Program-made: the position numbers and the translations under genes | The notes under the pieces: model-generated | What the model was told of the DNA's origin: nothing | Database searches by the model: none | The model's input: only the letters and a program-made list of their open reading frames with translations | Shown here: positions 1 to 20,200 of the stretch, piece after piece | Layout of the letters: the number at the start of each line of letters is the position of its first letter | How positions within the stretch are numbered: the stretch's first letter is position 1 | Source: a virus | Reading direction: 5' to 3' (one strand) | Length of the DNA: 29,425 nt | IMG/VR virus record: IMGVR_UViG_3300033992_000105 | Coordinates: 1 to 29,425 of that record

Positions 1-82
1 GTTGTATGAACCCGTACCAATTGTTTGCTCTTTATTACATATAAGTTCTAAAGAGCAAACAATTGGTACGGGTTCATACAAC
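1..82. repeat. Perfect 34-bp inverted repeat at the window edge (likely fold-back artefact)
   Basis: Bases 1-34 are the exact reverse complement of bases 49-82, with a 14-base spacer at 35-48. The right arm reads in frame into the downstream protein in the style of its other repeats, so it looks like the genuine sequence. The left arm begins exactly at base 1 and looks like a reverse copy of it. Fold-back ends of this kind are common at contig ends or in amplified DNA. A genuine terminal hairpin is possible but is not expected for a T4-like genome. Confidence 0.9.
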
Positions 83-3000
83 TTATCAACTCAAATTACA
101 AACGTAAGTTCTTCTTATGGTACTGTTGTAAACGTTGTTAAAAACGGATTGAGTGTATTACCTACATTAGTAACAAATACATCATCATCTTTAAAAGTAA
201 CAAATGCAAATCCTATAAGACAAGCAATATCAGCATCATCTTTTGATACTAATAAGATTGCAAGTGGATTTGATTTGATACTAAGTGTAATTGAAAATGG
301 AACATCTTTACTTCCAACAATTATATCAAATACATCGGCAAGTATTAAGGTAACTAACACACCACAAATAATAAGTGGAAGTGCGGCGGGAAGATTGCAA
401 GGTAAATTAATATCATCATCTTTATCTTTGGTAATTGATGTTTTATTAAGTAATGGTACAAGCTCAATTGGACTTAAACAATCAACATTCCCAATAGCAA
501 ATTCAAATGCAAAGATAAACTCAGCATATAATCTATTGGTAAGTAACTCTAAATTTATAGTTGATGAAACTATTGCTTATATGAGTTCATCTTGGAGTGG
601 ATTTGAATATACACAAAGTAAATGTGAAAGAGATTTGACTGGAATCCTTAGTGGTTCTGCATTTGACCTTTTATATGGTGGTAACTCAGCATCTTTGTTT
701 AATGGTAAGTTCTATTTTGATTTCCCATCTAAAGCAACTGGTTCACAATTAGACCAAACAATTACGGCAATCAAATACGCAAGTGGATTGGCTGAGAAGG
801 TTGTGTTGAATACTGTATTTACACACATATCAGCATCAATCAACCAACCAACATCAGCATCTTGGAATTCATTGAGAGAAAATAAGGCATTTATACAAAG
901 TGAATCAATCGCATATCTATCTTCTTCTTGGAGTAACTTTGGTTATAACGAAACTACTTGTAAGAGAGATATTGGATACGTTATAGATGCAGTAGCAACC
1001 GATTTACTATATGGTGGTAACGAAAGAAGTGTTGTAGCTGGAAGATACTATTATGATTTCCCATCACAAGCTACAAACGCACAATTAGAACCAACATTGA
1101 CTGGTGTAAGATACGCAAAAGGAACGGCTATGAACGTAGTTGTTAATAAGCAAGTATTTACGGCATCTTTGGAAGTTCAATACGCATATGATTTAATAAA
1201 AGCTAACAAACTATTCATACAAAGTGAAAGTATTGCATATGTAAATGTTAAATACCCTAACTTAGATTATAGTGAAAGTAAATGTTATAGAGATTTGGGG
1301 TATATCATTGATGGTGTTGCAACTGATTTACTTTATGGTGGAAATGAAAGAAGTAGAAAGAATGCAGATTACTATTATCAGTTCCCATCACAAGCTAACG
1401 GATTTGGTTCACAAGTGGTTGAAACAACTGATGCAATTAAGTACGCAGCTAGATTTACAACTGCATCTATTAGTAGTACATTAATAGCAGCACCTTCTAT
1501 TATACTTAATACTTTAGGAAATATTAAAGTAACAAACACTAACCAATATATTTCAGCATCATCGGCAACTTCTACTGAAGCAACAATACTATCAGCATCA
1601 ATTGCTATTGTAACAAACATAGTTGCTAACGGAACTAGTTCAGCAATAGTATCGGCATCATTAAGTTTACCAACATCATCTTATACAACGGCTGTAAGTA
1701 ATGATAATAGATGGATTGCATACGGAATACTAAAAAATAACATTTCATTCATACAGGATGAAACTATTGCTTACCTATCTTCTTCTTGGAGTACGGCATC
1801 TTACGATGAAAGTAAGTGTAGACGTGATGTAGGATTGATTATAAGTGGAGCAGCTGAAGATTTAGTATTTAACTCAAATTCAGCATCATTATTTAATGGT
1901 ATATTCTATTATCAATATCCATCACAGGCGCAGGGAGCACAATTGAACCAAACACTTGATGGAATAAACTACGCAAGTAAGTTAGCACAAAAAGTAATTC
2001 AAAACATAACTTATGTAACGGCATCGGCAATTGTATCAGCATCATACGCATTGATAAGAAAGAATAGAGAGTTTATACAAAATGAAACTATTGCGTATCT
2101 ATCTTCTTCTTGGAGTACGGCATCCTATATTGAATCAACTTGTAAAAGAGATGTTGGTCATATCGTAGATGCAGTTTCTACGGATTTATTATATGGTGGA
2201 AACGAAAGAAGTACAAACGCTGGGGTATTCTATTACTTATATCCATCGCAAGCGCAAGGTTCACAATTACAACCAACATTAGCAGGTGTTAATTACGCAG
2301 GACAACTTTCTAAGAATGTTGCGGCATCATTAACATTTGTGACAGCATCACAATTGGTATCAGCATCGGTTAATTTATTGAGAAAGAATAGAGAGTTTAT
2401 ACAAAATGAAACACTAGCTTATTTAACTGCTAGCTGGAGTACATTTGAGTATGATAAAGATAAGTGTAAGAGAGATGTTGGTTATATCTTAGACGGTGTA
2501 ACAACTGATTTACTTTATGGTGGAAATGAAAGAGGTGTATTCAGCGGGGAGTTCTATTACAAATATCCATCTAAAGCAATTATTGAAGGAGATGGTGATG
2601 GTGTTGGACAATTAGGACAAACAATTGATGGTATAAACTACGCAAGTAGAATAGCACAAAAGATTGTTAAGAATATAGTATTCCAAACGGCATCATTAGA
2701 AGCATCGGCATCATTTGATTTATTAAGAAAGAACAAATCATTTATAGCAGAAGAAACTATTGCATATGTATCTTCGTCTTGGAGTGGAGTATATTATAAT
2801 CAAACAACTTGTAAGAGAGATGTTGGATACTTAGTAGATGCAGCAGCAACGGATGTATTATATGGTGGACAAGAAAGAAGTGTGATAGCAGGACAGTATT
2901 ATTACTTATATCCTTCTAACGCAATCAATAAAGGTGTACCATCTACTCTAAATCAATTAGACCCAACTCTTACTGGTATCAGATATGCTGGAAAGTTATC

Positions 3001-4012
3001 TAAAAACGTAGTAATAAATCCAACGTATTTAGTACCATCAGCATCTTTAATAGATACTGCAAAATTATTGACAGATAACAAACAATTAATACAAAAAGAA
3101 ACTATAACATTCTTAAGTTCGTCTTGGAGTAACTTAAAATATAATGAAGCAAGTTGTAGTAGAGATTTAGGATTTATCATAGATGCAATCAGAACGGATT
3201 TAGTTTATGGTGGTAACGAAAGAAGTATTGAAGCAGGTTCTTATTATTATAAATTCCCATCAGTAGCAATTGTGGATAGTTATAGTGATAATAACGGACA
3301 AAAGAAACAAACAATAGATGGTATTAACTTCGCAAGAGGAATATCTGAAAAAATAGTAGCAAATACTTTACTAACTTATTTAGCACCAGCAACTAAGAGA
3401 AGACAGGCAGCTGAAAGATTAAAAGCTGGTAAAGATGAATTGAAACAAAGAGCAATTGGATACACAAATGGAGCATTTCCATATTTAGTATATAATGAGG
3501 CAAGTTGTTCGCGTGATACTGGATTTATTGTAGATGCGGCTGTAACTGATTTATTGTATGGTGGAAACGAAAGAGGAATTAGAGCAGCATCTTCTTACTA
3601 CGATGGACAATACGGAAGTGCAATAGCTGTGACTAGAGACCAATTATTAGAAACATTGGAAACAAATCGTTATCTAAGAACTAGAGCAGAGTTTATAGCA
3701 GCAGGTGCACCATTGGAAGCATTTGGTTCTCTAATTGTGGCAACGGGTATTGACTATTCTTATAATGGCAGTGGTGTGACATTTAAAGCACTTCCTCCAA
3801 ATCAGGGTGGTAGTGGTGTTGCAAATCCAATATATGAAATTACCGAATTGGGTGGAGGTAGAATCTACTTTACATCTGGTAATCAGGATGGTGACTTTAG
3901 AATTGGTACTGGTTTAAGTATTAATCAGGCAACTGGTACTCTTGTGGGTAGAACATTTAGTAAATCTCTATTCTCATTAGTAACTCCGTTCTCATTAGCA
4001 CTACAAATATAA
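2..4012 (+). CDS. Large repetitive virion structural protein, 5'-truncated (T4-like marine phage type)
   Basis: At least 1300 residues of a long, Ser/Thr/Ala-rich structural protein, probably of the baseplate or fibre region. It contains nine repeats of about 108-116 residues. Each has a helical opening ([DE/SE]-T-I-A-Y-x-S-S-S-W), a core C-x-R-D-x-G-x-I-x-D-A with D-L-L-Y-G-G-N-E-R-S, a Y-Y-Y-x-x-P-S segment, and a closing stretch similar to DGINYASKLAQKVIQN. Cores with one cysteine each fall near 620, 960, 1285, 1815, 2140, 2465, 2810, 3155 and 3505. A second module around K-V-T-N-T occurs near 195, 343 and 1523. The C-terminal 90 residues are non-repetitive, end in SLVTPFSLALQI, and resemble the ends of structural proteins in T4-like cyanophages. 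The apparent start at base 2 lies in the fold-back palindrome, so residues 1 to about 16 are probably false and the true N-terminus is missing. The exact role is unknown. Confidence 0.85.
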   Translation: MYEPVPIVCSLLHISSKEQTIGTGSYNLSTQITNVSSSYGTVVNVVKNGLSVLPTLVTNTSSSLKVTNANPIRQAISASSFDTNKIASGFDLILSVIENGTSLLPTIISNTSASIKVTNTPQIISGSAAGRLQGKLISSSLSLVIDVLLSNGTSSIGLKQSTFPIANSNAKINSAYNLLVSNSKFIVDETIAYMSSSWSGFEYTQSKCERDLTGILSGSAFDLLYGGNSASLFNGKFYFDFPSKATGSQLDQTITAIKYASGLAEKVVLNTVFTHISASINQPTSASWNSLRENKAFIQSESIAYLSSSWSNFGYNETTCKRDIGYVIDAVATDLLYGGNERSVVAGRYYYDFPSQATNAQLEPTLTGVRYAKGTAMNVVVNKQVFTASLEVQYAYDLIKANKLFIQSESIAYVNVKYPNLDYSESKCYRDLGYIIDGVATDLLYGGNERSRKNADYYYQFPSQANGFGSQVVETTDAIKYAARFTTASISSTLIAAPSIILNTLGNIKVTNTNQYISASSATSTEATILSASIAIVTNIVANGTSSAIVSASLSLPTSSYTTAVSNDNRWIAYGILKNNISFIQDETIAYLSSSWSTASYDESKCRRDVGLIISGAAEDLVFNSNSASLFNGIFYYQYPSQAQGAQLNQTLDGINYASKLAQKVIQNITYVTASAIVSASYALIRKNREFIQNETIAYLSSSWSTASYIESTCKRDVGHIVDAVSTDLLYGGNERSTNAGVFYYLYPSQAQGSQLQPTLAGVNYAGQLSKNVAASLTFVTASQLVSASVNLLRKNREFIQNETLAYLTASWSTFEYDKDKCKRDVGYILDGVTTDLLYGGNERGVFSGEFYYKYPSKAIIEGDGDGVGQLGQTIDGINYASRIAQKIVKNIVFQTASLEASASFDLLRKNKSFIAEETIAYVSSSWSGVYYNQTTCKRDVGYLVDAAATDVLYGGQERSVIAGQYYYLYPSNAINKGVPSTLNQLDPTLTGIRYAGKLSKNVVINPTYLVPSASLIDTAKLLTDNKQLIQKETITFLSSSWSNLKYNEASCSRDLGFIIDAIRTDLVYGGNERSIEAGSYYYKFPSVAIVDSYSDNNGQKKQTIDGINFARGISEKIVANTLLTYLAPATKRRQAAERLKAGKDELKQRAIGYTNGAFPYLVYNEASCSRDTGFIVDAAVTDLLYGGNERGIRAASSYYDGQYGSAIAVTRDQLLETLETNRYLRTRAEFIAAGAPLEAFGSLIVATGIDYSYNGSGVTFKALPPNQGGSGVANPIYEITELGGGRIYFTSGNQDGDFRIGTGLSINQATGTLVGRTFSKSLFSLVTPFSLALQI
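541..3600 (+). repeat. Nine tandem ~330-bp coding repeats (C-x-R-D ... D-L-L-Y-G-G-N-E-R)
   Basis: The E-T/S-I-A-Y openings fall near 567, 903, 1227, 1760, 2083, 2407, 2755, 3100 and 3440. The period is 323-348 nt, apart from one 533-nt step between copies 3 and 4 that holds an extra K-V-T-N-T module. Copies 1 and 4 share a variant core (I-S-G-x-A-x-D-L and N-S-A-S-L-F-N-G) in place of D-A-V-A-T-D-L-L-Y-G-G-N-E-R-S. This implies a higher-order duplication. Confidence 0.9.
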
Positions 4013-5023: not shown

Positions 5024-8000
5024 ATGGCAATAAGTAATCTTTTAACAGGTAGGGTAAGGGTAGTATCGCCTAAAAATGTAACATCTGACAGGTATCAATT
5101 TCTTGATTTATCTCAAGCGGAGCCTAATTTAGGAGTACCACCATTCTCAGCCTCATTATTAACAAATCCAGCTATAATAGTTTCGGATAGTGATGGTAAT
5201 AGAGGGTTTGCAAAGAAATTATTTTTAGAAGAGTTTTCTGGCTCGTTTTCAGGCTCATTTCAGGGAGATGGTAGTGGATTAAGAAATGTACCATCTGTAG
5301 TAGCACCATTTATAGCAAGTGGTTCTGCAACTGCATCGTTTAAATCTAACGGACTTAATATAAATACGGATACTATAATTGATGGTAATCTTTATGTGAG
5401 TAAATCAATTATAGCAGACCAAATTATTGTAAATATAGTTTCATCATCAATAATTTATTCGTCTGGTTCAAACATATTTGGTAATACTGATTCAAATATA
5501 CAACAATTCACAGGTTCTGTACGAATACAAAGTGAATTGATTGGTAATAATATTACTGGTTCTTCTTTTACTGGTTCATTTACTGGTTCATTTTTTGGAG
5601 ATGGTAGAGATTTATTTAATTTACCTCAAGCTACTAGATTATCAACTGGTTCTGTAACTGCATCAGTTTCTCCTCAATTTGGATTTAAAGTAGAATCAAT
5701 ATCGAGTGGTTCTCAATTTACTGGAAGCTTATTTGTAAGTGGTAATGTAACTGCAGATTTTTATTTTGGAGATGGTTCTAATTTATTAAATGTACCTTCA
5801 ACAGTAGCACCTAGAATTGCTAGTGGTAGTGTAACTGCATCAATCGCACCAAATACTGGATTTATTGTAAATACATTTGCACAATTTGAATTTCCTGTAT
5901 CAGCATCAATGTTTAGTGGTAGTGGTAGAGGTTTATTTGATATTCCTCGTTCTGCTCTTACACCCGATGCATTAACGGCAACATTAATAGCAACTGGTTC
6001 TATAACTGCTTCTGTAAGTCCTAATTATGGATTTAAAGTAGAAGCAGGTGAATTGGGTTCTCAGTTTACTGGAAGTTTATTTGTAAGTGGTGGAAACATA
6101 AGAGTTGAAACTGGTTCGTTTTTTAGTGGTAGTGGTGCTGGTTTAAAAGATATACCTCGTTCAGCATTAACACCGGATGCATTATTAAGTACTTTAATTA
6201 CAAGTGGTAGTGTAACTGCATCAGTATCGCCTAATTTAGGATTTCAGGTAATATCCGCAGAAAGTGGTTCAACCTTTACTGGTAGTTTATTTGTAAGTGG
6301 GGGTATTGAAATAAATTCTGGGTCATCTTATTCTGGTAGTGGAGAACGATTATTTGATATTCCTATTAAAGCATTAAAAGATTTAGACCTTACAAAAATT
6401 AGTAGTGGTAGTGCAACAGCATCTATTAGTCCTGATTTTGGATTTAGAGTAAATACGTTTTCTACATTTAGTGGAAGTATGATAATATCGGCATCTGCTG
6501 TTTATTATACATCGGAATCATTGGATACTGTTTTTAATGTAACGAATGGTGCCGATATTGCATATTCATTTACTGGAGCGGTTAGTGGACCTAACCCAGC
6601 TATAAATTTGGTAAGGGGTATAACATATACATTTAATATTAATGCAGCTGGGCAACCATTTTGGATAAAAACAGCAATTTCAACAGGTGGTGGTGATTTA
6701 TATAATACTGGTGTAACAAATAATGGAGCTGAAGTAGGTACGATTACATTCACTGTTCCGAATGATGCACCAAATATATTATATTATAACTCCGAATATC
6801 AGGCATCAATGCGTGGTACTATTAATATAGTTGATAGTCTTGTAAAAAGACCAGCAGAATTAAAAGTAATAGGATATACTAATATTATAGGTGATACTAG
6901 TATAACGGGTAGTTTGCTTGTTAAAGATGGCGCAACATTTAAATATTGGGTATCGGCATCGGTGTTTACTGGTAGTGGTGCTGGATTATATGATATTCCT
7001 CGTTCTGCATTTACTGGAGATTCAACTAGAATAGCAAGTGGTAGTATAACAGCATCTGTGAGTCCTGATTATGGATTTAGAGTTGAAACTGATTTAAGTG
7101 GGTCTACTAGATATGGTTCTCAATTTACTGGTAGTGTAGATGTAAGTGCAAGTTTTAGAGCACGTGATATAATTACTAATCTTATTTTTGCTAATGAAAT
7201 TAGTGGGTCTGATATTAGTGGTTCATTTCAAGGAGATGGTAGTAGATTAACAAATATTAACGTACCACCGCAAGTAGCAACAAAAATTGTTTCTGGTTCA
7301 GTAACTGCATCGGTTGCACCTAATATTGGATTTGTAGTTACATCTACCGAATTGGGTTCTACTTTATTAGGTCGTGTTGGAATTAGCGGAAGTTTATTTG
7401 TAAGTGGTAATATAGAACTAAATTCAGGTTCAGCATTTTCTGGTAGTGGGGCTAATTTATTTAATATACCTAGAACAGCTTTAACGCCCGATGCATTATT
7501 ATCAACATTTATAGCATCTGGTAGTGTAACTGCATCAGTATCACCTAACTTTGGATTTAAAATAGAATCTACTGAAAAGGGTACACAATTTAGTGGAAGT
7601 TTATTTGTAAGTGGAGCTGGAATATTTTTAAATTCTGGTTCATTTAGTGGTAGTGGTAAAAATTTATTTGATATTCCAATTTCAGCACTTTCTAATTTAG
7701 ATACATCAAAAATATTTAGTGGTAGTGTAACTGCATCAGTTTCTCCAAATAGAGGATTTGAAGTATTTGCAGCTACATCAAATTTTTCTGGTTCAATATC
7801 GGCATCTGTATTTAGTGGTAGTGGTGCTGGATTAACAAATATTCCATTTTCAGCACTTTCACAAGAATTATTCAGAATCACAAGTGGTAGTGTAACTGCA
7901 TCAGTATCTCCTGATACTGGATTTAAAGTAGAATCATCAGAAATTGGTTCTCAATTTACAGGTTCATTATTTGTTAGTGGTGGATACATTAGAGTTGAAA

Positions 8001-11000
8001 CCGGCTCATTCTTCTCTGGTTCTGGTGCTGGATTAAATAATATTCCTCGTTCTGCTTTAACTTTAGATGCATTAATATCGACTGAAATTAAAAGTGGAAG
8101 TGTAACTGCATCTGTTTCACCTGATGATGGATTTAGAGTAATTTCAATAGAAAGTGGTTCTCAATTTAGTGGAAGTTTATTTGTAAGTGGAGGATATATT
8201 AGAGTAGAGACTGGTTCATTCTTTAGTGGTAGTGGTGCTGGGTTATCTGATATTCCTGAATCCGCTCTATCATTTAAAATTAATAGAATTGCAAGTGGTT
8301 CGGCAACGGCATCTATATCACCCGATTATGGTTTTAGAGTAAACACATTTTCTGCAATTAGTGGAAGTTTTATAGTATCATCTTCAGCTAGAGAATTGGC
8401 TTATAGTGATATAGATACTGTATTTAACGTAACAAATGATGGTAGTAATTCGTATATTATAAGCAATAGGTTAGTAAGTGGTTCAAATCCAACTTTAACT
8501 TTAGTAAGAAATGTAAATTATACATTTAACGTAAATGCTTCTGGGCATCCATTCTTAATTAAAACACAAAGTGGACCAGGCCCTAGTAACACATACACTA
8601 CTTGGGTAACTAATAATGGTGATGATGTTGGTGTTATAACATTTTTGGTTTCTGGAAGTGCACCTGATACATTATACTATAATTGTCAGTTTCATGGAAG
8701 TATGGCAGGTACTATTAATGTAGTAGATGCATTATATGTTCCAGCTGAAATAAAATTAATTGGTGAAACAAAAGTAGAAGGTAATGTAACCGCTTCAATG
8801 TTTAGTGGTAGTGGTAAAGGATTATTTGATATACCACAATCTGCGATATCCGGTGATACCGTTAGAATTGCTAGTGGTAGTGTAACCGCATCTGTATCTC
8901 CTAATTTTGGATTTAGAGTAGCATCATTTGTAAGCGGTTCTGATTTTAGTGGAAGTATTAGAATAGATTCATCATCTTTCATATATTCATTAGGAACTTA
9001 TTTAAGAGAAATTCCTAGAGCAGCATTAACCGAAGATGCATTAGTTTCATCGGAAATTAAATCCGGCTCAGTAACGGCGTCTGTAAGTCCTGATTTTGGG
9101 TTTAGAGTAACAAGTCCATTCTCATCTTCAATTGATGAATCTGGTTCATTTACTACACAAATTGGTTCTAGATTTACTGGTTCAATTTCTATAAGTGGTA
9201 GTTTATTTGTAAATGATACAAGTGGTGGTTTATTTATAGAATCATCTTCATTCATATATGGCGTTGGTACTTATTTAAGAAATATCCCTCGTTCAGCATT
9301 GACAGAAGATGCGTTAATATCTACTGAAATTAAAAGTGGTAGTGTAACCGCATCGGTAAGTCCTGATTTTGGATTTAGAGTAATAGCAACTGATATAGTT
9401 AGTGGTTCTATTTTTGGTTCTCAATTTACAGGTTCCGTTGATGTAAGTGGAAGTATTAGAGCATTTACATTTTTAGGAGATGGTTCTCAATTAACAAATG
9501 TAGTAGCTGCAGCATCTCCATTAATAGCAAGTGGTTCGGCAACGGCTTCGGTAGCAAGTGGTGATACTTTTATAGTAACAACTGGAGCAACTGGTTCTGG
9601 TTTGGATTTTCAAATTGGTACTCGTATAACGGGTAGTGTGGATATTAGTGGTAGTTTAAAATCACAATTCTTTGTTGGTGATGGTAGATTTATTAGTAAC
9701 GTACAAGCAGCAGCTGCACCATTCATTGGTAGTGGTTCTGCAACAGCATCAGTTCAAAGCGGTGATTCCTTTGTAGTAACAACTGGAGCAACTGGTTCGG
9801 CCATTGGTTCTAGATTTACGGGTTCAATTGACGTAAGTGGTAGTGTTAGAGCATTCACATTTATTGGAGATGGTTCTCAACTAATAAATGTACAAGCATC
9901 AGCAGCACCTTTAATAGCAAGTGGTTCAGCAACTGCATCTGTACAAAGTGGAATACAATTTATTGTAACAACAAAGGGAAATTTCTCTACTGTAGGTTCA
10001 AACTCTGGCTCTTATTATGGTTCTGTATTTACTGGTTCTGTAATTATTAGTGGGTCAATATCAGCATCTCGTTACGATGGAGATGGTGGTGGATTATTTA
10101 ATATACCGGCATCAGCACTTGAAGATTTACAATTAGATAGAATCCAATCTGGTTCTGGTAGAGCAATTATAGACCCAGAAAAATTAGATGTAAACGTACC
10201 AATAACAGCAGCACTTTATATAGGTGATGGTGGTGGGTTATTTAATATTCCTGCAAACGCATTGCAAGACCTTAAATTAGATAGAATCATATCTGGTTCT
10301 GTTCAGGGTGTAATATCACCAAACAAAGGATTAGAAGTTAATACATCTGTTAGAATATTCTCTGGTTCATTGACTGTGAGTGGTTCGGTGTTTGTTAGTG
10401 GTGGAAATGTTATAGTAGCAAGTGGTTCAACATTTATTGGAGATGGTAGTGGTTTGACAAATATTAGTTTAGCAAATATATCATTTGAAACATTTATATT
10501 AAAGAGTGGTTCATTCACCGCATCAATTTCTCCTGATAAAGGATTTGTTGTAAACGCATCGGCTAGTATTTGGGGAGATGTATATGTTGGAAATAATCTA
10601 AGAGCTAATAAAATAACTGGAAGTACTTCAATATATTCTCCAATAGTAAGTGGGGGTTTATTGGGTACATACACATATCAGGGAAATGGACCAACTGCAA
10701 GTATTGATTACGATATTTTAAGATATGACCCAACTAGAGGACATTATATTCCTCAACCTGAAACTTCATTAACTGAAACAGTATCATTTAATAATGTTAG
10801 TAGTTTAACAATTGTACACAATTTGGGAATTAGATACCCAATGGTTCAGGTTTACGCAACTGGTTCGGAAGACCAAATTTTACCTGGCACAATAAAATCG
10901 ATTGATGATGATACTATTCAAATTCTATTTAGTGGATTGACTAGTGGACATGCCGTAATTGGTAGTGGTGGTAGTTTAATAAACGGAAGTATACCTGGTG

Positions 11001-14000
11001 ATAGAGTTATTGGTTCTGTACTTTCATCATCATATGCATTTATCGCAGAAACTGCAAGAAGTGTTACTGGATTTGATTCGGCATCATTATCAGCATTAAC
11101 TGATATTCAAAACTTAGTTAGAAATTCACAAACATCTTCAATGAGTGTGGCGTTTGCAGTTAATTCAACATTCGCACAAACTGCATCTTATGTAGCTAAC
11201 TTAGGTGAATTGGATTTGACTAACTATGTTAAAAATTCAGTAACATCTTCAATGACTGTTGGTACGGCATCTTTAGCAATTACCGCATCATACGCATTAT
11301 TTGCACAAAACGCATCGAATGTAGATACAACAAACTTTATACAAAAAACACAAACAGCATCAATGTTTGTTGGTACTGCTTCATTAGCATACACAGCATC
11401 TTACGCAATGTTTGCATTATCTTCTGGAAATACTGATACGGCATCTTTCTTACAAATTAATAAAGACCAAACAATTAACGCATCGCTTACAATTAGTGGT
11501 AGTATTGGTGTTAGTGGTAGTATAAGAATAGGTACATTAGCATCTGGTTCTTCTGATAATGTAGTTGTTTGGAATAGTGCAACAAAAATATTAGAAACAC
11601 GAAGTGTAGCAGGTGTGCAAGGTTCTTCTGGCTCAGCCGGTTCGGCGGGTACATCTGGAACTGAAGGTTCGGCAGGTTCATCGGGAACTTCTGGAACTTC
11701 TGGAACGGAAGGGTCGGCAGGTACTTCAGGAACTTCTGGTACAAGTGGTAGTGAGGGTTCGTCTGGAACTTCTGGAACGGAGGGTTCAGCAGGTACTTCA
11801 GGAACTTCAGGAACTTCTGGTACGGAAGGTTCAGCAGGTACTTCAGGTACTTCAGGTACTTCTGGCACATCGGGAACAACTGGTAGTGAAGGTACATCAG
11901 GAACTTCTGGAACATCTGGCTCTACGGGTAGTGAAGGTACATCGGGAACTTCTGGAACAGCCGGTAGTAGTGGTACATCAGGAACTTCTGGTACATCGGG
12001 AACATCTGGAACAAGCGGTACATCAGGAACTTCTGGAACAAGCGGTACTGCTGGTAGTAGTGGCACAAGTGGTTCATCGGGAACTTCTGGAACAAGTGGT
12101 ACATCGGGCTCTACTGGTAGTGCAGGTACATCGGGAACTTCTGGTAGTGGGGGTACTTCGGGAACAAGCGGAAGTAGTGGTAGTAGTGGTTCATCGGGAA
12201 CTTCTGGAACTACGGGAAGTGAAGGTACTTCAGGAACTTCTGGTTCAACCGGTACGGGAGGTTCATCGGGAACTTCTGGTTCAGCAGGAACTTCTGGGAC
12301 GAGAGGAACAAGCGGTAGTGGTGGAACTTCTGGCACAAGCGGAACATCAGGTACAAGTGGTGGAGAAGGTTCTTCTGGAACAAGCGGTAGTGGTGGTTCA
12401 TCTGGTACGGGAGGTTCTTCTGGAACTTCAGGCTCAGCAGGAACTTCAGGAACTTCTGGAACAAGTGGTAGTGATGGTATAAGTGGTACATCGGGAACTT
12501 CTGGAACGAGTGGTAGTAGTGGTACATCTGGTTCAACGGGTTCTTCTGGAACTTCTGGCACATCGGGAACTTCTGGCTCAACTGGTTCAGCAGGTACATC
12601 GGGAACTTCTGGAATTGATGGCACATCGGGAACTTCTGGCACAAGCGGCACATCAGGAACTTCAGGTACAACGGGAAGTGATGGAACGTCTGGAACAAGT
12701 GGTAGTGATGGTTCATCGGGAACTTCTGGTACAAGTGGCACATCAGGAACTTCAGGTACAACGGGAAGTGAAGGAACGTCTGGAACAAGCGGTACATCCG
12801 GAACAAGCGGTAGTGATGGAACTTCTGGAACAAGTGGTTCAACTGGTAGTGATGGTACAAGCGGTACGAGTGGTATTGGTACTGATGGAACGTCTGGAAC
12901 AAGTGGTACATCAGGAACAAGCGGTACTGATGGAACTTCAGGAACAAGCGGAATAAGTGGTAGTGATGGAACTTCAGGAACAAGTGGTATAAATGGAACG
13001 GATGGTACATCGGGAACTTCTGGTTCTGATGGAACTTCTGGAACAAGTGGTAGTGATGGAACTTCAGGAACTTCTGGTACAAATGGTAGTGAGGGAACTT
13101 CTGGAACATCAGGTACGTCAGGCTCCAACGGAACATCGGGCACAAGTGGTAGTAATGGCACAAGCGGTACATCGGGAACTTCTGGAACAAGTGGTATTGG
13201 TACTGATGGAACTTCAGGAACAAGCGGAATAAATGGAACGGATGGTACATCGGGAACTTCTGGTTCTGATGGAACTTCTGGAACGTCTGGTAGTAGTGGT
13301 ACAAGCGGTACAAGTGGCACATCAGGAACTTCTGGTTTAGATGGAACATTCTTTGGTAGTAGTGGTACTTCGGGAACTTCTGGTACAAGTGGTTCAAGCG
13401 GTACAAGCGGTACATCAGGAACTTCTGGTTTAGATGGGACATATTTTGGTAGTAGTGGTACGAGTGGTATTGGTACTGATGGAACTTCGGGAACTTCTGG
13501 TACAAGTGGAATCAATGGTAGTGATGGAACTTCTGGAACAAGTGGAATCAATGGTAGTGATGGAACGTCAGGAACTTCTGGTTTAGATGGAACATTTTTT
13601 GGTAGTAATGGAACAAGTGGAGAGAATGGTACTTCAGGTACTTCTGGAGCAGGTACTTCGGGAACATCTGGTACAAGCGGTACATCAGGAACTTCTGGTT
13701 TAGATGGGACATATTTTGGTAGTAGTGGTACAAGTGGAGAGAATGGTACTTCAGGAACTTCTGGAGCTGGAACTTCTGGCACATCGGGAACTTCGGGTAC
13801 TTCAGGAACGTCTGGTATAGATGGAACATATTTTGGTTCATCTGGAACTTCTGGAAGTGATGGAACTTCGGGAACGTCTGGAGCAGGTACGTCTGGAACT
13901 TCTGGTATGGATGGAACATCAGGAACTTCTGGTTTAGATGGTACATATTTTGGTAGTAGTGGTACTAGTGGAGAAAGTGGTTCATCGGGAACTTCTGGAG

Positions 14001-15178
14001 AGAGTGGTTCATCAGGAACTTCTGGAGAAAGTGGTTCATCCGGAACTTCAGGAACTTCTGGATTGGATGGTACACTATTTGGAAGTAGTGGTACTTCAGG
14101 AACTTCTGGTACAAGTGGAAGTAGTGGAACTTCTGGTACATCAGGAACTTCTGGTTCTTCTGGATTGAATGGTACAATGTTTGGTTCTTCAGGAACTTCT
14201 GGTACATCCGGAACTTCTGGAATAAGTGGTACATCAGGAACGTCTGGTACAAGCGGTACGTCTGGGACGTCTGGATTGGATGGTACATTATTTGGTTCAT
14301 CGGGTACTTCTGGAGTTAGTGGTACATCGGGAACGTCAGGTTCTTCTGGTACAAGTGGAACTTCGGGTACATCAGGAACTTCTGGAGTGAATGGTACAAT
14401 GTTTGGAAGCAGTGGAACTTCTGGAGCACAAGGAACTGGTGGGAGTGGAGGTTCTTCTGGTACTAGTGGTACATCATTTTATGGAGTTACATCAGGAACT
14501 TCCGGAACATCAGGAATTAGTGGTACTAACGGTTTAGCTGGTACTTCTGGTACAAACGCTCCGGGATTTTCATCGGGAACTTCTGGTACATCTGGGCAAA
14601 CTGGTACAAGCGGAACAAGTGGTACAAACGCTCCGGGATTTTCTTCTGGAACATCAGGAACTTCTGGATTAACTGGAACATCAGGAACGTCCGCACCTGG
14701 AATAACTTCTGGAACGTCTGGAACATCTGGATTTCAATTAACTGGTACAACTAATAATGGTTTACTTACATATGTTGATACACCTATTGGAGTTCAAGTA
14801 GAATCTGGAATATTATTTGATGGAACTACTTTATCGGTAACCGGTAATGTAGCATCTACAACATATAGAGAAACATATTCAAATCAAGGAACTGGTGGAA
14901 GCGTAACATTAGATTTATCTACGGCAAATAACTTTAGAAGACAATTTAATGGTACTGCAACAATATCATTCTCAAATGCACCAGCATCAAATGCATTTGG
15001 ATTTACTTTAGTAGTTGTAAATGCTGGGGCCTTTTCTATAACATGGCCTGTTAATGTTGATTGGGCAGGTGGAAGTGCACCATTATTAACATCGTCTGGA
15101 ACTGATGTTTTAGCGTTCTATACTTATGATAATGGTACAACCTATTTAGGATTCACAACTGGTAAAAATTTAAGTTAA
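5024..15178 (+). CDS. Giant tail fibre-like protein with beta repeats, cupredoxin-like domains and a collagen-like shaft (3384 aa)
   Basis: A giant fibre-type virion protein. Residues 1-75 form a non-repetitive N-terminus (TGRVRVVSPKNVTSDRYQFL), probably the virion-attachment part. Residues about 75-1860 hold about 22 units with an F-x-G-D/S-G-x-G-L-x-x-I-P turn, I-x-S-G-S-V-T-A-S-V-S-P-x-x-G-F-x-V and F-T-G-S-L-F-V-S-G. Two cupredoxin-like domains are embedded at residues 501-604 and 1131-1235. A small beta domain spans about 1912-1985 (V-H-N-L-G-I-R-Y-P-M-V-Q-V-Y), followed by A/S-rich units. Residues 2197-3235 are collagen-like Gly-X-Y, mainly G-T-S. Residues 3236-3384 are a C-terminal cap ending WAGGSAPLLTSSGTDVL then G-K-N-L-S. 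There is no S74 chaperone domain. The next two genes follow at 4 bp and 1 bp and probably form one transcript. The repeat types are common in phage fibres; the role in host binding is inferred. Confidence 0.85.
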   Translation: MAISNLLTGRVRVVSPKNVTSDRYQFLDLSQAEPNLGVPPFSASLLTNPAIIVSDSDGNRGFAKKLFLEEFSGSFSGSFQGDGSGLRNVPSVVAPFIASGSATASFKSNGLNINTDTIIDGNLYVSKSIIADQIIVNIVSSSIIYSSGSNIFGNTDSNIQQFTGSVRIQSELIGNNITGSSFTGSFTGSFFGDGRDLFNLPQATRLSTGSVTASVSPQFGFKVESISSGSQFTGSLFVSGNVTADFYFGDGSNLLNVPSTVAPRIASGSVTASIAPNTGFIVNTFAQFEFPVSASMFSGSGRGLFDIPRSALTPDALTATLIATGSITASVSPNYGFKVEAGELGSQFTGSLFVSGGNIRVETGSFFSGSGAGLKDIPRSALTPDALLSTLITSGSVTASVSPNLGFQVISAESGSTFTGSLFVSGGIEINSGSSYSGSGERLFDIPIKALKDLDLTKISSGSATASISPDFGFRVNTFSTFSGSMIISASAVYYTSESLDTVFNVTNGADIAYSFTGAVSGPNPAINLVRGITYTFNINAAGQPFWIKTAISTGGGDLYNTGVTNNGAEVGTITFTVPNDAPNILYYNSEYQASMRGTINIVDSLVKRPAELKVIGYTNIIGDTSITGSLLVKDGATFKYWVSASVFTGSGAGLYDIPRSAFTGDSTRIASGSITASVSPDYGFRVETDLSGSTRYGSQFTGSVDVSASFRARDIITNLIFANEISGSDISGSFQGDGSRLTNINVPPQVATKIVSGSVTASVAPNIGFVVTSTELGSTLLGRVGISGSLFVSGNIELNSGSAFSGSGANLFNIPRTALTPDALLSTFIASGSVTASVSPNFGFKIESTEKGTQFSGSLFVSGAGIFLNSGSFSGSGKNLFDIPISALSNLDTSKIFSGSVTASVSPNRGFEVFAATSNFSGSISASVFSGSGAGLTNIPFSALSQELFRITSGSVTASVSPDTGFKVESSEIGSQFTGSLFVSGGYIRVETGSFFSGSGAGLNNIPRSALTLDALISTEIKSGSVTASVSPDDGFRVISIESGSQFSGSLFVSGGYIRVETGSFFSGSGAGLSDIPESALSFKINRIASGSATASISPDYGFRVNTFSAISGSFIVSSSARELAYSDIDTVFNVTNDGSNSYIISNRLVSGSNPTLTLVRNVNYTFNVNASGHPFLIKTQSGPGPSNTYTTWVTNNGDDVGVITFLVSGSAPDTLYYNCQFHGSMAGTINVVDALYVPAEIKLIGETKVEGNVTASMFSGSGKGLFDIPQSAISGDTVRIASGSVTASVSPNFGFRVASFVSGSDFSGSIRIDSSSFIYSLGTYLREIPRAALTEDALVSSEIKSGSVTASVSPDFGFRVTSPFSSSIDESGSFTTQIGSRFTGSISISGSLFVNDTSGGLFIESSSFIYGVGTYLRNIPRSALTEDALISTEIKSGSVTASVSPDFGFRVIATDIVSGSIFGSQFTGSVDVSGSIRAFTFLGDGSQLTNVVAAASPLIASGSATASVASGDTFIVTTGATGSGLDFQIGTRITGSVDISGSLKSQFFVGDGRFISNVQAAAAPFIGSGSATASVQSGDSFVVTTGATGSAIGSRFTGSIDVSGSVRAFTFIGDGSQLINVQASAAPLIASGSATASVQSGIQFIVTTKGNFSTVGSNSGSYYGSVFTGSVIISGSISASRYDGDGGGLFNIPASALEDLQLDRIQSGSGRAIIDPEKLDVNVPITAALYIGDGGGLFNIPANALQDLKLDRIISGSVQGVISPNKGLEVNTSVRIFSGSLTVSGSVFVSGGNVIVASGSTFIGDGSGLTNISLANISFETFILKSGSFTASISPDKGFVVNASASIWGDVYVGNNLRANKITGSTSIYSPIVSGGLLGTYTYQGNGPTASIDYDILRYDPTRGHYIPQPETSLTETVSFNNVSSLTIVHNLGIRYPMVQVYATGSEDQILPGTIKSIDDDTIQILFSGLTSGHAVIGSGGSLINGSIPGDRVIGSVLSSSYAFIAETARSVTGFDSASLSALTDIQNLVRNSQTSSMSVAFAVNSTFAQTASYVANLGELDLTNYVKNSVTSSMTVGTASLAITASYALFAQNASNVDTTNFIQKTQTASMFVGTASLAYTASYAMFALSSGNTDTASFLQINKDQTINASLTISGSIGVSGSIRIGTLASGSSDNVVVWNSATKILETRSVAGVQGSSGSAGSAGTSGTEGSAGSSGTSGTSGTEGSAGTSGTSGTSGSEGSSGTSGTEGSAGTSGTSGTSGTEGSAGTSGTSGTSGTSGTTGSEGTSGTSGTSGSTGSEGTSGTSGTAGSSGTSGTSGTSGTSGTSGTSGTSGTSGTAGSSGTSGSSGTSGTSGTSGSTGSAGTSGTSGSGGTSGTSGSSGSSGSSGTSGTTGSEGTSGTSGSTGTGGSSGTSGSAGTSGTRGTSGSGGTSGTSGTSGTSGGEGSSGTSGSGGSSGTGGSSGTSGSAGTSGTSGTSGSDGISGTSGTSGTSGSSGTSGSTGSSGTSGTSGTSGSTGSAGTSGTSGIDGTSGTSGTSGTSGTSGTTGSDGTSGTSGSDGSSGTSGTSGTSGTSGTTGSEGTSGTSGTSGTSGSDGTSGTSGSTGSDGTSGTSGIGTDGTSGTSGTSGTSGTDGTSGTSGISGSDGTSGTSGINGTDGTSGTSGSDGTSGTSGSDGTSGTSGTNGSEGTSGTSGTSGSNGTSGTSGSNGTSGTSGTSGTSGIGTDGTSGTSGINGTDGTSGTSGSDGTSGTSGSSGTSGTSGTSGTSGLDGTFFGSSGTSGTSGTSGSSGTSGTSGTSGLDGTYFGSSGTSGIGTDGTSGTSGTSGINGSDGTSGTSGINGSDGTSGTSGLDGTFFGSNGTSGENGTSGTSGAGTSGTSGTSGTSGTSGLDGTYFGSSGTSGENGTSGTSGAGTSGTSGTSGTSGTSGIDGTYFGSSGTSGSDGTSGTSGAGTSGTSGMDGTSGTSGLDGTYFGSSGTSGESGSSGTSGESGSSGTSGESGSSGTSGTSGLDGTLFGSSGTSGTSGTSGSSGTSGTSGTSGSSGLNGTMFGSSGTSGTSGTSGISGTSGTSGTSGTSGTSGLDGTLFGSSGTSGVSGTSGTSGSSGTSGTSGTSGTSGVNGTMFGSSGTSGAQGTGGSGGSSGTSGTSFYGVTSGTSGTSGISGTNGLAGTSGTNAPGFSSGTSGTSGQTGTSGTSGTNAPGFSSGTSGTSGLTGTSGTSAPGITSGTSGTSGFQLTGTTNNGLLTYVDTPIGVQVESGILFDGTTLSVTGNVASTTYRETYSNQGTGGSVTLDLSTANNFRRQFNGTATISFSNAPASNAFGFTLVVVNAGAFSITWPVNVDWAGGSAPLLTSSGTDVLAFYTYDNGTTYLGFTTGKNLS
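6524..6835 (+). other. Cupredoxin-like domain, copy 1, candidate copper ligands lost
   Basis: Residues 501-604 of the 3384-aa fibre protein. The domain aligns with copy 2 along its length (D-T-V-F-N-V-T-N ... Y-T-F-N-[IV]-N-A ... V-T-N-N-G ... L-Y-Y-N ... G-T-I-N-[IV]-V-D). Positions that hold His, Cys and His in copy 2 are Gln544, Ser590 and Gln593 here; only Met596 remains. The fold call is by motif. Loss of metal binding is inferred. Confidence 0.6.
8414..8728 (+). other. Cupredoxin-like domain, copy 2, with a complete candidate type 1 copper ligand set
   Basis: Residues 1131-1235 of the 3384-aa fibre protein. Visible features are a Y-T-F-N-V-N-A strand followed by G-H1175-P-F, then L-Y-Y-N-C1221-Q-F-H1224-G-S-M1227. 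An upstream His, a later Cys-x2-His and a following Met is the ligand order of plastocyanin-like type 1 copper sites; plastocyanin itself uses a longer gap between His and Met. Similar domains occur in fibres of other aquatic phages. Metal binding is an inference. Confidence 0.6.
11612..14728 (+). repeat. Collagen-like Gly-X-Y coding repeat array (~1039 residues)
   Basis: Residues 2197-3235 of the 3384-aa fibre are almost entirely Gly-X-Y triplets, dominated by G-T-S, with G-S-S, G-S-D-G and G-T-D variants. In the DNA this is a 9-nt/18-nt repeat such as ggtacatcgggaacttctgg. The phase is broken by three G-I-G-T-D-G and three G-A-G-T-S-G sites, which are one residue short. It is also broken by ten [LIV]-[DN]-G-T-[FYLM]-F-G sites, which are one residue long. 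Near the end there are N-A-P-G-F-S-S elements. Collagen-like shafts of this kind form trimers in other phage fibres. Confidence 0.9.
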
Positions 15179-15182
15179 AGCT

Positions 15183-16085
15183 ATGGGAATATTTAGAAGA
15201 TTAGTAGAATCAGATGCATCGCAGGTTTTTCCTTTTGTATTTAAAGTAACAACAACTACTGCAAGTACAGTGTTTACTTGTCCTTTGGTAGATTATGGTG
15301 GATTGACACCATCTTTATATATTAATTGGGGAGATGGAAATACATCACCATTAATAACAGCATCAAATTCAGCAAATAGAATTCATACATACGCAAGTGT
15401 AGGAACTTACATAATTACTATAAGTGGATTTATGCCAGGATTTTCAGTAAATAATAATTCAGCAATTAGAAATCTTATTACTGAAATAGTACAATTTGGA
15501 ATAGTTGGGTTAAGAACAATTAATTTTTATGGTTGTCAAAACGTAACATCAATACCAAGCAGCGCATCTTTAAGTGCAGTGGGTGGATATACTGGATTGG
15601 ATGAAGTAGTATCTTTTTCCGGATTCATGCAAGCAACTAGAATTACATCAATACCAGCTGATATGTTTCAATATTCTACAAAAGCAACAACATTTTCAAA
15701 CACTTTTGCATCTGTATTAACATTAACAACAGTTCCATCTGGATTATTTAATAATGTACCAAACGTAACAACATTTGCATCTTGCTTTTTTGGTTGCACC
15801 GCACTAACATCAGTACCTTCTGATTTGTTTGACCAAAATACAACCGCTGTAAACTTTTCTGGTACTTTTTATAATTGTAGAGCACTTACAAATGTATTAC
15901 AATTTACATATAATACAAGCGTAACTATTTTTAATAATGTATATAATATGAGTAGTACGGTAAATTCATTATCTGGTACTGCTCCGGAAATTTGGAATAG
16001 AATACCAATTCCAGCCGGTACTAACGCATTTAATAATTGTACTGGATTAACAAATTTTGCATCAATACCTTCAACTTTTAAATAA
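15183..16085 (+). CDS. PKD-like plus BspA-type leucine-rich repeat protein (putative adhesin)
   Basis: A 300-residue protein that starts 4 bp after the giant fibre gene, so translation is probably coupled. Residues about 20-85 look like a PKD-type beta sandwich: I-N-W-G-D-G at 47-52, H-T-Y at 68-70, and G-T-Y-I-I-T-I-S-G at 74-82. Residues about 90-300 contain repeats of about 25 residues (I-T-S-I-P-A-D-M-F, L-T-T-V-P-S-G-L-F, L-T-S-V-P-S-D-L-F, with intervening F-x-x-x-F-x-x-C-x-x-L). These resemble BspA-type (DUF285-like) surface repeats. There is no signal peptide, as expected for a virion part. Both domain types mediate surface or glycan contacts in other proteins, so a receptor-binding or decoration role beside the fibre is plausible. 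That role is inferred from domain type and position. Confidence 0.75.
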   Translation: MGIFRRLVESDASQVFPFVFKVTTTTASTVFTCPLVDYGGLTPSLYINWGDGNTSPLITASNSANRIHTYASVGTYIITISGFMPGFSVNNNSAIRNLITEIVQFGIVGLRTINFYGCQNVTSIPSSASLSAVGGYTGLDEVVSFSGFMQATRITSIPADMFQYSTKATTFSNTFASVLTLTTVPSGLFNNVPNVTTFASCFFGCTALTSVPSDLFDQNTTAVNFSGTFYNCRALTNVLQFTYNTSVTIFNNVYNMSSTVNSLSGTAPEIWNRIPIPAGTNAFNNCTGLTNFASIPSTFK

Positions 16086-17221: not shown

Positions 17222-20200
17222 ATGGAGTTTAACGGTAATAATCCTAATGGTTTAAATCAGACTAGTGTAAATAGTATATCACTTTTTGTAAGTGGTGCAG
17301 CTATATTAAACGCATCATCTGAATCTATAAGTATTGTAGGAAACTTCAGTGCTTCTAAAATACAAACGGATGAAATTGATTCATTTGGTAATAATCCGTT
17401 ACAAATAAAAGCAAACACACAAATTAGTGGTTCGGCTAATATTTCATCATCAATATCGGCATCTTTATTTAGAGGAGATGGTAGTGGATTATTCAATATA
17501 AACGCATCATCAATTGGTGATTTGGATAGATTAAAATCAGGTTCAGCAACAGCTATAATTTCTCCAAATAGAGGATTAGAAGTAAATACTGCAGTAACTA
17601 TAAGAGATTATCTTATTGTAACTGGTAGTGGTATTTTTAGAGGTGATGTAACTGTAGCTGGAAAAATAAATACAACTGAATTATTTGCAACATATATTTC
17701 ATCATCAATAATCTACGCAAGTGGAAGTAACAAATTTGGTGATGCACAAAACGATAAGCAAGAATTTACTGGTAGTGTAGGAATTACGGGCTCATTATCA
17801 TTTGGAATTGGTTCACTAAAACCAGATATAACAACCGATGATGTATTAGTTTATAATTCTACAACTGGTAGAATTGGTTTTAAAACAGCAGCGGCAACAT
17901 CAGGTACATCAGGAACTTCTGGAACTTCAGGTACAACTGGTTCGGCAGGTACATCCGGAACTTCTGGAACATCTGGCACGAGTGGAAGCAGTGGTACATC
18001 GGGAACTTCTGGAAGTAGTGGTACATCTGGCTCTACTGGTAGTGCTGGTACATCAGGAACTTCTGGTTCAACTGGTTCATCGGGTACAACTGGTTCGGCA
18101 GGTACATCGGGAACTTCTGGAACATCTGGCACGAGTGGAAGTAGTGGGACTAGTGGTAGTGCTGGTACATCAGGAACTTCTGGCACAAGCGGTACAAATG
18201 GTTCGGCTGGTACAACAGGCTCAGCTGGAACTTCTGGTAGTGGTGGTACAACAGGTTCAGCAGGAACTTCTGGCACACGTGGTACAAGCGGCACATCAGG
18301 AACGTCTGGTTCAGCAGGAACTTCTGGTTCGGCTGGAACATCTGGTACGAATGCATCGGCTGGTACATCTGGTGTAAGTGGTACAACCGGTTCTTCGGGA
18401 ACTTCTGGTGTAAGTGGCACTTCGGGAACTTCTGGCACAAGCGGTACTGCTGGTAGTGGTGGTATAACTGGAGGAGGTGGTACAAATGGAACTAGTGGTA
18501 CATCAGGAACTTCTGGTAGTGGTGGTACATCGGGAACTTCTGGAAGCAGAGGCACATCAGGAACTTCTGGTTCATCAGGAATAAGTGGAGCCGGTGGGGG
18601 TAGTGGTTCATCAGGAACTTCTGGTACAAGTGGTACATCAGGAACTTCTGGAAGTGGAGGTACATCGGGAACTTCTGGTATAAGTGGAGTACAAGGTTCA
18701 TCAGGTTCTAATGGAACTTCTGGTACTAGTGGAAGTAGAGGCACAAGTGGAACATCGGGAACTTCTGGTATAAGTGGAGTACAAGGTTCATCTGGAACTT
18801 CAGGAACTTCTGGTATAAATGGAGTGCAGGGTTCGTCTGGGTCTGCTGGTACAAGTGGAGTGAGTGGTTCTGCAGGAAGTAGTGGCACGAGTGGAACTTC
18901 TGGTGTGAGTGGTTCGGCTGGAAGTAGTGGTACGAGCGGAAGTAGTGGTACAAGCGGTAGCAGCGGAACAAGCGGTAGTAGTGGTACAAGTGGAAGCTCT
19001 GGAACTTCTGGTGTGAGTGGTTCGGCTGGAAGTAGTGGAACAAGCGGAAGTAGTGGCACATCTGGCACAAGCGGTAGTAGTGGAACAAGCGGTTCATCAG
19101 GAACTTCTGGAAGTAGTGGTACGAGCGGAAGTAGTGGTACATCTGGAACAAGCGGTAGTAGTGGAACAAGCGGTTCATCAGGAACTTCTGGAGTTAGTGG
19201 TACATCTGGCACAAGCGGAAGTAGTGGTACATCTGGAACAAGCGGAAGTAGAGGTACATCAGGAACTTCTGGTTCGTCTGGCACCTCAGGAACTTCTGGA
19301 AGTAGTGGTACATCAGGAACTTCTGGTTCAGCAGGTACATCGGGATTATTATCATTAACAGGTACAACTGATAATGGTGTAATCACATTAAACGGAACTG
19401 CTCCAAACGCAACCGTTGAAGCAAATTTAAGATTTGATGGTACTACATTAGCAGTAACTGGTAACGCTACAATTAGTGGTGACCTTACTGTAAGTGGTAC
19501 AACAACATATATTAATACAACAACTTTAAATGTAGGTGATAATATCATTACATTAAATGCAGATATTGGAGCAGCAACTGCACCAACTGAAAATGCTGGT
19601 ATAGAAGTTAAGAGAGGAAACGCAGCAACAAAACAATTTATTTGGGATGAGGGTAATGATAGATGGTCATTTGATGATAATACATATGTAAATGGAAATA
19701 TTCAGGGAACTGGTAACATTGTTATATCAGGTACAATTAATACTGGACAAGGTGTAACTGAGGTTTATTTAATGGACCAAAACGTAAGAACTACCGATGG
19801 TGTAACATTCGCAACCGTTAATACTGGACAGGGTGCTAACGAATTATACGCAATGAACCAAAATGTTAGAACAACTGATTCGGTTCAATTTGGTAGTACA
19901 GTTGGTGTAAGAAATACAACAGCAGCATCTAATAGTAATTTACAATTAGGAAATGATGTTTCTGTAAATGGAGCTGGAGCTGCATTATTTGGAAGTACAT
20001 ACGCGGCATCTGGTCAATATAGAGCAAATGGTGGATATTTTTATAGTAACTTAGCAGGTGGTTTAACATTACATGCAGAAGGAGCTAATACAATGTATTT
20101 AGCAACTAATGGTACAACTGGTATGCAAATGAACTCTACACAAAGAGTAGGATTTGGTACAACGGATTTTTCATACACAACTACCGATAACACATCAGTA

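Follow-up and report, generated by a model that had tools for sequence, protein, structure and literature searches.

A predicted type 1 copper site in a cupredoxin bead within the tail-fibre shaft of an uncultured phage

In this work we describe a cupredoxin domain, encoded at positions 8417-8728 on the plus strand of a stretch of DNA from an uncultured phage, which probably carries a working type 1 (blue) copper site, forms a bead in the shaft of a long tail fibre and is probably used at the cell surface. The whole stretch, hereafter the window, comprises 29,425 nt (positions 1-29,425 of IMG/VR record IMGVR_UViG_3300033992_000105). The original prediction had placed a cupredoxin with a type 1 ligand set at 8414-8728, an extent that agrees with ours, and its assignment is supported by the sequence, the predicted fold, the pairing of ligand positions in a profile alignment with rusticyanin, conservation in relatives, and losses that affect at least two ligands at once. 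The geometry of the ligands, their occupancy by copper, when the metal would be loaded and what the site would do at the cell surface are inferred.

The gene (5024-15178, plus strand) encodes a 3,384-residue tail fibre in which shaft repeats bearing two cupredoxin copies are followed by a collagen-like SGTSGTSG stretch, recognised by PHROG collagen-like matches from about residue 2190. The domain at 8417-8728 is the second copy (residues 1132-1235) and has its ligands intact. A first copy, additional to the one named in the original prediction, lies at 6527-6835 (plus strand; residues 502-604); it is 54% identical to the second (E 1e-33) and is predicted to adopt the same fold, with Q544, S590 and Q593 replacing His, Cys and His and M596 retained. 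Both copies share their shaft-repeat flanks, SGSATASISPD-GFRVNTFS ahead and PAE-K-IG-T behind, and since they occupy an equal place in the shaft repeat the domain is a bead set among repeats deep within the chain.

Within the second copy the first candidate ligand, His1175 (8546-8548), falls in the GHPF of SGHPFLIK directly ahead of a strand, while the thiolate position Cys1221 (8684-8686), the second His position His1224 (8693-8695) and the axial position Met1227 (8702-8704; Gln in some relatives) all lie in YYNCQFHGSMAG, each on the plus strand. The histidine in G-H-P-F and the Cys-x2-His-x2-Met series were thus correctly located in the original prediction. Among the 3,384 residues there is no Cys other than Cys1221, and ligand positions account for two of the five His; the next two proteins of the window by length hold 7 Cys in 2,641 residues and 10 in 1,336. 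Shuffling produced the C-x2-H-x2-M motif once in 20,000 trials with the whole fibre and 37 times in 200,000 trials with the domain, a rarity which argues that it reflects more than chance.

Structure prediction yielded AlphaFold2 models with a pLDDT of 96.4 and pTM of 0.89 for copy 2 (117 aligned sequences) and a pLDDT of 95.7 and pTM of 0.89 for copy 1 (62 aligned sequences). The best structural match of copy 2 was to residues 24-134 of 2dv6_A, a Hyphomicrobium nitrite reductase (Z 11.2, 2.2 A, 94 residues), which was also the top match of copy 1 (Z 11.0, 2.4 A, 93 residues), and rusticyanin structures matched copy 2 with Z of 9-10 (1rcy Z 9.2, 2.5 A over 95 residues). In a Foldseek search, all 15 matches at E <= 0.001 were copper proteins, in loose superpositions with rmsd of 4.6-8.0 A. 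Its predicted model and these Z scores of 11.2 and 9-10 to copper proteins identify copy 2 as a cupredoxin beta-sandwich. His1175 (model residue 48) stands directly before strand 50-53, Cys1221 (residue 94) is the final residue of the next-to-last strand, 89-94, and His1224 and Met1227 (residues 97 and 100) lie in the loop preceding strand 101-107. A His before one strand, a Cys ending the next-to-last strand, and a His and Met in the next loop constitute the layout of a type 1 site, and sequence, model strands and rusticyanin alignment agree in placing the His, Cys, His and Met/Gln positions in this manner. Together, the residue set and the fold point to copper as the metal. We also observed that Pithovirus and Marseillevirus proteins named 'beta-sandwich protein' match the model in a viral structure library.

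Profiles were needed to recover copper families by sequence, since copy 2 searched alone matched no copper family in Pfam or NCBIfam (PF00127 and the NCBIfam amicyanin, plastocyanin and rusticyanin models included) and no PDB chain. Profile A1 was built from 32 relatives, and because its rows were hand-picked and five ligand-deficient copies omitted, its invariant columns are not used as evidence; against the PDB it matched Cu nitrite reductase (5.8e-4), amicyanin (1.1e-3) and plastocyanin (2.9e-3), with the unrelated penicillin acylase at a similar value (2.1e-3). Profile A4, of 117 relatives with deficient copies included, gave weaker values (best 1.1e-3), and profile A3, of seven relatives, matched amicyanin (1.3e-4), rusticyanin (3.7e-4) and plastocyanin (6.1e-4). 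Phage proteins were absent from the PDB matches listed for all three profiles. The A3-rusticyanin alignment pairs all four positions, H-H (GhPfyik / GHSFDIT), C-C, H-H and M-M, with residues that we take to be the copper ligands of rusticyanin; in the amicyanin and plastocyanin alignments the first His of the phage domain stands two residues ahead of theirs, and only the rusticyanin alignment pairs it.

Searches with the 117 relatives recovered copper families among curated models, with PF00127 matched by 18 (best 1.9e-5) and Cupredoxin_1 by 6 in Pfam (E <= 0.01), and amicyanin by 27 (best 3.2e-7), plastocyanin by 24, rusticyanin by 22 (best 8e-7) and pseudoazurin by 8 in NCBIfam (E <= 0.1). 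The commonest Pfam match at the same threshold was PF25489 (39 of 117, best 5.4e-7), the name of which is not that of a copper family. Membership of the window domain in this At5g54830-like family was rejected, as copy 1 scored 17.4 bits and the whole fibre 15.3 bits relative to a cut-off of 27, and copy 2 was unmatched.

Rusticyanin resembles the phage domain both in fold and in the H, C, H and M residues paired with the four phage positions, and the amicyanin sequence of the profile alignment shares the C-x2-H-x2-M loop. However, identity to these proteins is about 20%, their curated models do not recognise the window domain, the first His is out of register with amicyanin, and the phage domain is a fibre insert whereas rusticyanin and amicyanin are free electron carriers. 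Similarly, the three-domain Cu nitrite reductases (2dv6, 6tfd) provide the best structural match through their first cupredoxin region, which is there part of an enzyme, whereas no enzymatic domain was recognised in the phage fibre. We read the domain as a type 1 copper module that serves fibres and baseplate proteins as a bead, a known kind of module in a new context and subfamily.

Conservation of the ligands was examined among 308 distinct full domains from viral and phage loci. Nine were dropped, eight of them longer copies in the ORF after gp9 whose alignment stopped short of the Cys strand, and the ninth a copy whose N-terminus was junk; 199 formed a selected group of scan-target loci and fetched phage records, all HCHM (199/199) and kept out of the unselected count; and the remaining 100 were bystanders picked by no scan pattern. 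H-C-H was intact in 87 of the 100 bystanders, with Met as the axial residue in 77 and Gln in 10. All 40 distinct viral copies from a scan whose pattern fixed only the first His were HCHM, as were all 26 readable copies in the 19 fetched phage loci (two further copies being incomplete). In bacterial contigs, which were scanned with patterns that omitted the Cys, second His and Met and in one case included the first His, all 61 readable copies were HCH, with axial Met in 60 and Gln in 1, and two further copies were incomplete; the phage-record and bacterial copies were found through similarity to intact domains, so that intact ones are favoured in these two counts. All intact copies have either Met or Gln at the axial position, and Gln serves as the axial ligand of some blue copper proteins. 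The ten distinct HCHQ sequences, a natural variant of the site, occur in the ORF after gp9 (loci L161, L162, L166, L167, L169, L172, L174, L178, L183 and L196). When one copy was taken per 80%-identity cluster of bystanders (63 copies), the ligand columns ranked 3rd, 6th, 7th and 11th of 90 in conservation.

The original prediction had left open that the domain is a structural fossil of a host electron-transfer protein. On such a reading, a cupredoxin fold would have been taken over as a bead of the shaft, with ligands that are an ancestral legacy and bind no metal. In keeping with this idea, two Tyr columns outrank every ligand column in the 63 unselected clusters, and the ligand-poor copy 1 is predicted to fold equally well (pLDDT 95.7, Z 11.0), which suggests that the bead, and with it the shaft, probably does not need metal. 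The pattern of loss argues otherwise. Among the 13 deficient bystanders (13/100), the first His was lost in 7, the Cys in 11, the second His in 13 and the axial residue in 7, yet each copy had lost at least two of H-C-H and single losses numbered 0 of 13, whereas drift should give single losses. In 20,000 shuffles of the bystander losses single losses averaged 25 with a minimum of 14, and with one copy per cluster 0 were again observed against a shuffle mean of 21 and minimum of 10, although shared ancestry weakens these statistics on joint loss. On the best tree ligand loss requires 7 changes, 4 of them forced by well-supported branches, and an independent-pair sign test gave p 0.125, the pairs being too few for this test to reach 0.05. 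At other conserved columns deficient copies keep 115 of 143 residues versus 706 of 957 in intact bystanders, indicating that the loss is specific to the site. In an alignment of ligand columns, a check envisaged in the original prediction, the positions are hence kept together or lost at least two at once rather than varying freely, so that relatives conserve the ligands as a set.

Selection for metal binding best accounts for a site that is kept whole where present. The joint loss of ligands with retention of other conserved residues favours functional metal binding over a fossil, which we regard as unlikely for copy 2. The same losses bear on a further alternative, in which the lone Cys would form a cross-link, be it a disulfide, a thioester or some other kind, or the site would hold a metal other than copper, for instance zinc. 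The chain has no Cys besides C1221 and an assumed trimer could gather three, but all 11 unselected copies that lack the Cys lack the second His as well, two bystander copies retain the Cys with both His and the Met lost, and the axial residue is Met or Gln in every intact copy, making this explanation the most improbable of those considered here.

Copy 1 of the window (Q544, S590, Q593) is one of the deficient exceptions, and its family offers a closer view of loss within single fibres. The window fibre family comprises 49 ORFs (loci L003-L050 and the window, near-copies included), of which 46 have at least two copies. The first copy is deficient in 10 of these 46, a proportion in keeping with a fossil, while the second is HCHM in 46 of 46, a count that is partly selected because the second copy was mostly the target of the scan. 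Of the 25 distinct segments in this family, 24 contain no Cys apart from ligand Cys. This rule is not general: the 296 host ORFs of at least 400 aa that carry an intact copy contain 983 Cys in all, of which 361 are ligand Cys, and 124 of the 296 ORFs are without another Cys.

Relatives of the domain occur in phages and in bacteria. At E <= 0.001, tblastn matched 337 of 50,697 phage records, and the names of 332 of these begin with Synechococcus, Cyanophage or Prochlorococcus. Within PHROGs the domain matches the last ~109 positions of phrog_677, a baseplate wedge tail-fibre connector (1.5e-23). Nineteen phage records were fetched, hand-chosen from the at least 337 matches, with P-HM1 (E 0.2) taken from a looser list only; in nine of them the domain lies in a gene annotated as a gp9-type connector, and the nine gp9-annotated copies are HCHM. 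The others carry it under fibre, baseplate, virion structural or hypothetical annotation, with three records lacking annotation, and one of the fetched records with the domain, P-SCSP2, has a genome of 37 kb. The original prediction considered such a module unexpected in a fibre shaft, a view that needs qualifying given that the module recurs in cyanophage structural proteins. The window fibre differs from the cyanophage connector in that phrog_677 has 412 positions with the domain at its end, whereas the fibre has 3,384 residues and two inserted copies. Identification of the fibre itself as gp9 was rejected, since matches to the 412-position profile were confined to positions 303-411 for copy 2 and 289-411 for copy 1.

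A scan of bacterial genome contigs gave 50 loci, some on short contigs that are possibly viral. The small bacterial carriers are read as secreted proteins, on the evidence of a lipoprotein-type start or a C-terminal membrane anchor in their sequences, while some other copies form C-terminal domains of larger proteins. Thirteen bacterial contigs (PS1 clade, OCS116 cluster, Rhodobiaceae and kin; loci L313-L316, L318-L323, L325, L334 and L335) carry a 422-449-aa ORF with two different cupredoxin copies, both HCHM. Cell and virus copies are intermingled on a poorly resolved tree with 10 changes, 2 of them forced by well-supported branches, and given so few resolved forks we make no claim on the direction of transfer between cells and viruses. 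Among the records listed, the tail sheath of the window is closest to that of Microcystis phage Mel-JY01 (47.7% over the whole length); an uncultured phage of 484 kb comes next (43.4%), and then Flavobacterium phages (46.7% over 62%). There was no cupredoxin copy in 38.4 kb around the Mel-JY01 tail sheath (best E 0.16), and none of the phage records named Microcystis matched the domain by tblastn.

We propose that His1175, Cys1221, His1224 and Met1227 would together hold one copper per intact copy and, as the fibre is outside the cell, that loading with copper would follow assembly or take place at lysis. At the cell surface the intact site probably acts as a module for adhesion or docking that is locked by metal, a role favoured because the carriers that can be placed are outer virion parts or secreted-looking bacterial proteins. 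Simple stabilisation may also be the role of copper in the fibre domain. Type 1 copper sites are electron carriers in known proteins, which would suit a redox module that senses or triggers binding by exchanging electrons with a host surface or periplasmic carrier; no partner was identified, and we hold this to be very unlikely.

Virion copper could alternatively act as a cargo or lure recognised by a host copper-uptake receptor, as has been proposed for iron in fibres with HxH motifs (PMC11705849). The location of the module in fibre and baseplate proteins would suit such a role. Against it, buried type 1 sites are not known to give up copper readily, and we consider a cargo or lure quite unlikely. 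Iron binding by HxH motifs in the tail fibre of Alteromonas phage R22Y is the closest published idea among the matches listed; there too a metal site is predicted in the tail fibre of a phage. It differs in metal and motif, and the abstract makes no mention of a cupredoxin (PMC11705849). Two other matches, PMC10792529 and PMC8115048, deal with subjects unrelated to the phage cupredoxin domain. The literature matches listed, which were mostly open-access and without bioRxiv preprints, contained no report of a virion cupredoxin domain or of a copper test.

With hundreds of cyanophage records carrying a relative of the domain, virions may carry copper, and if intact copies bind it, many sequenced cyanophages have a metal centre in virion proteins that their records label as fibre connector, baseplate wedge or hypothetical protein. 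We suggest, tentatively and with considerable doubt, that many cyanophage virions are copper proteins, with type 1 centres in baseplate connectors and fibres, such that the metal would be needed for attachment or injection and infection would depend on the copper chemistry of the water. If true, phage adsorption would be linked to trace-metal chemistry in a manner testable on phages already cultured, for which the ligand-poor copy 1 of the same fibre represents a natural negative control.

Several other proteins of the window have repetitive architectures. An ORF open at the window start (2-4012) encodes a fibre with repeats bearing a conserved CKRD..DLLYGGNERS motif; it matches phrog_4527, a short tail fibre, in nine stretches (2e-86) and, unlike the 3,384-residue fibre, holds 10 Cys. 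A 300-aa protein encoded at 15183-16085 has FxxCxxLTSVPSDLFDxN-type repeats and matches phrog_9915, a family of unknown function. Finally, a 2,641-aa protein encoded at 17222-25147 combines a collagen-like SGTSGTSG stretch and repeats of the unit RAPIFYDSNNTGYY with a Peptidase_S74 chaperone domain at its C-terminus.
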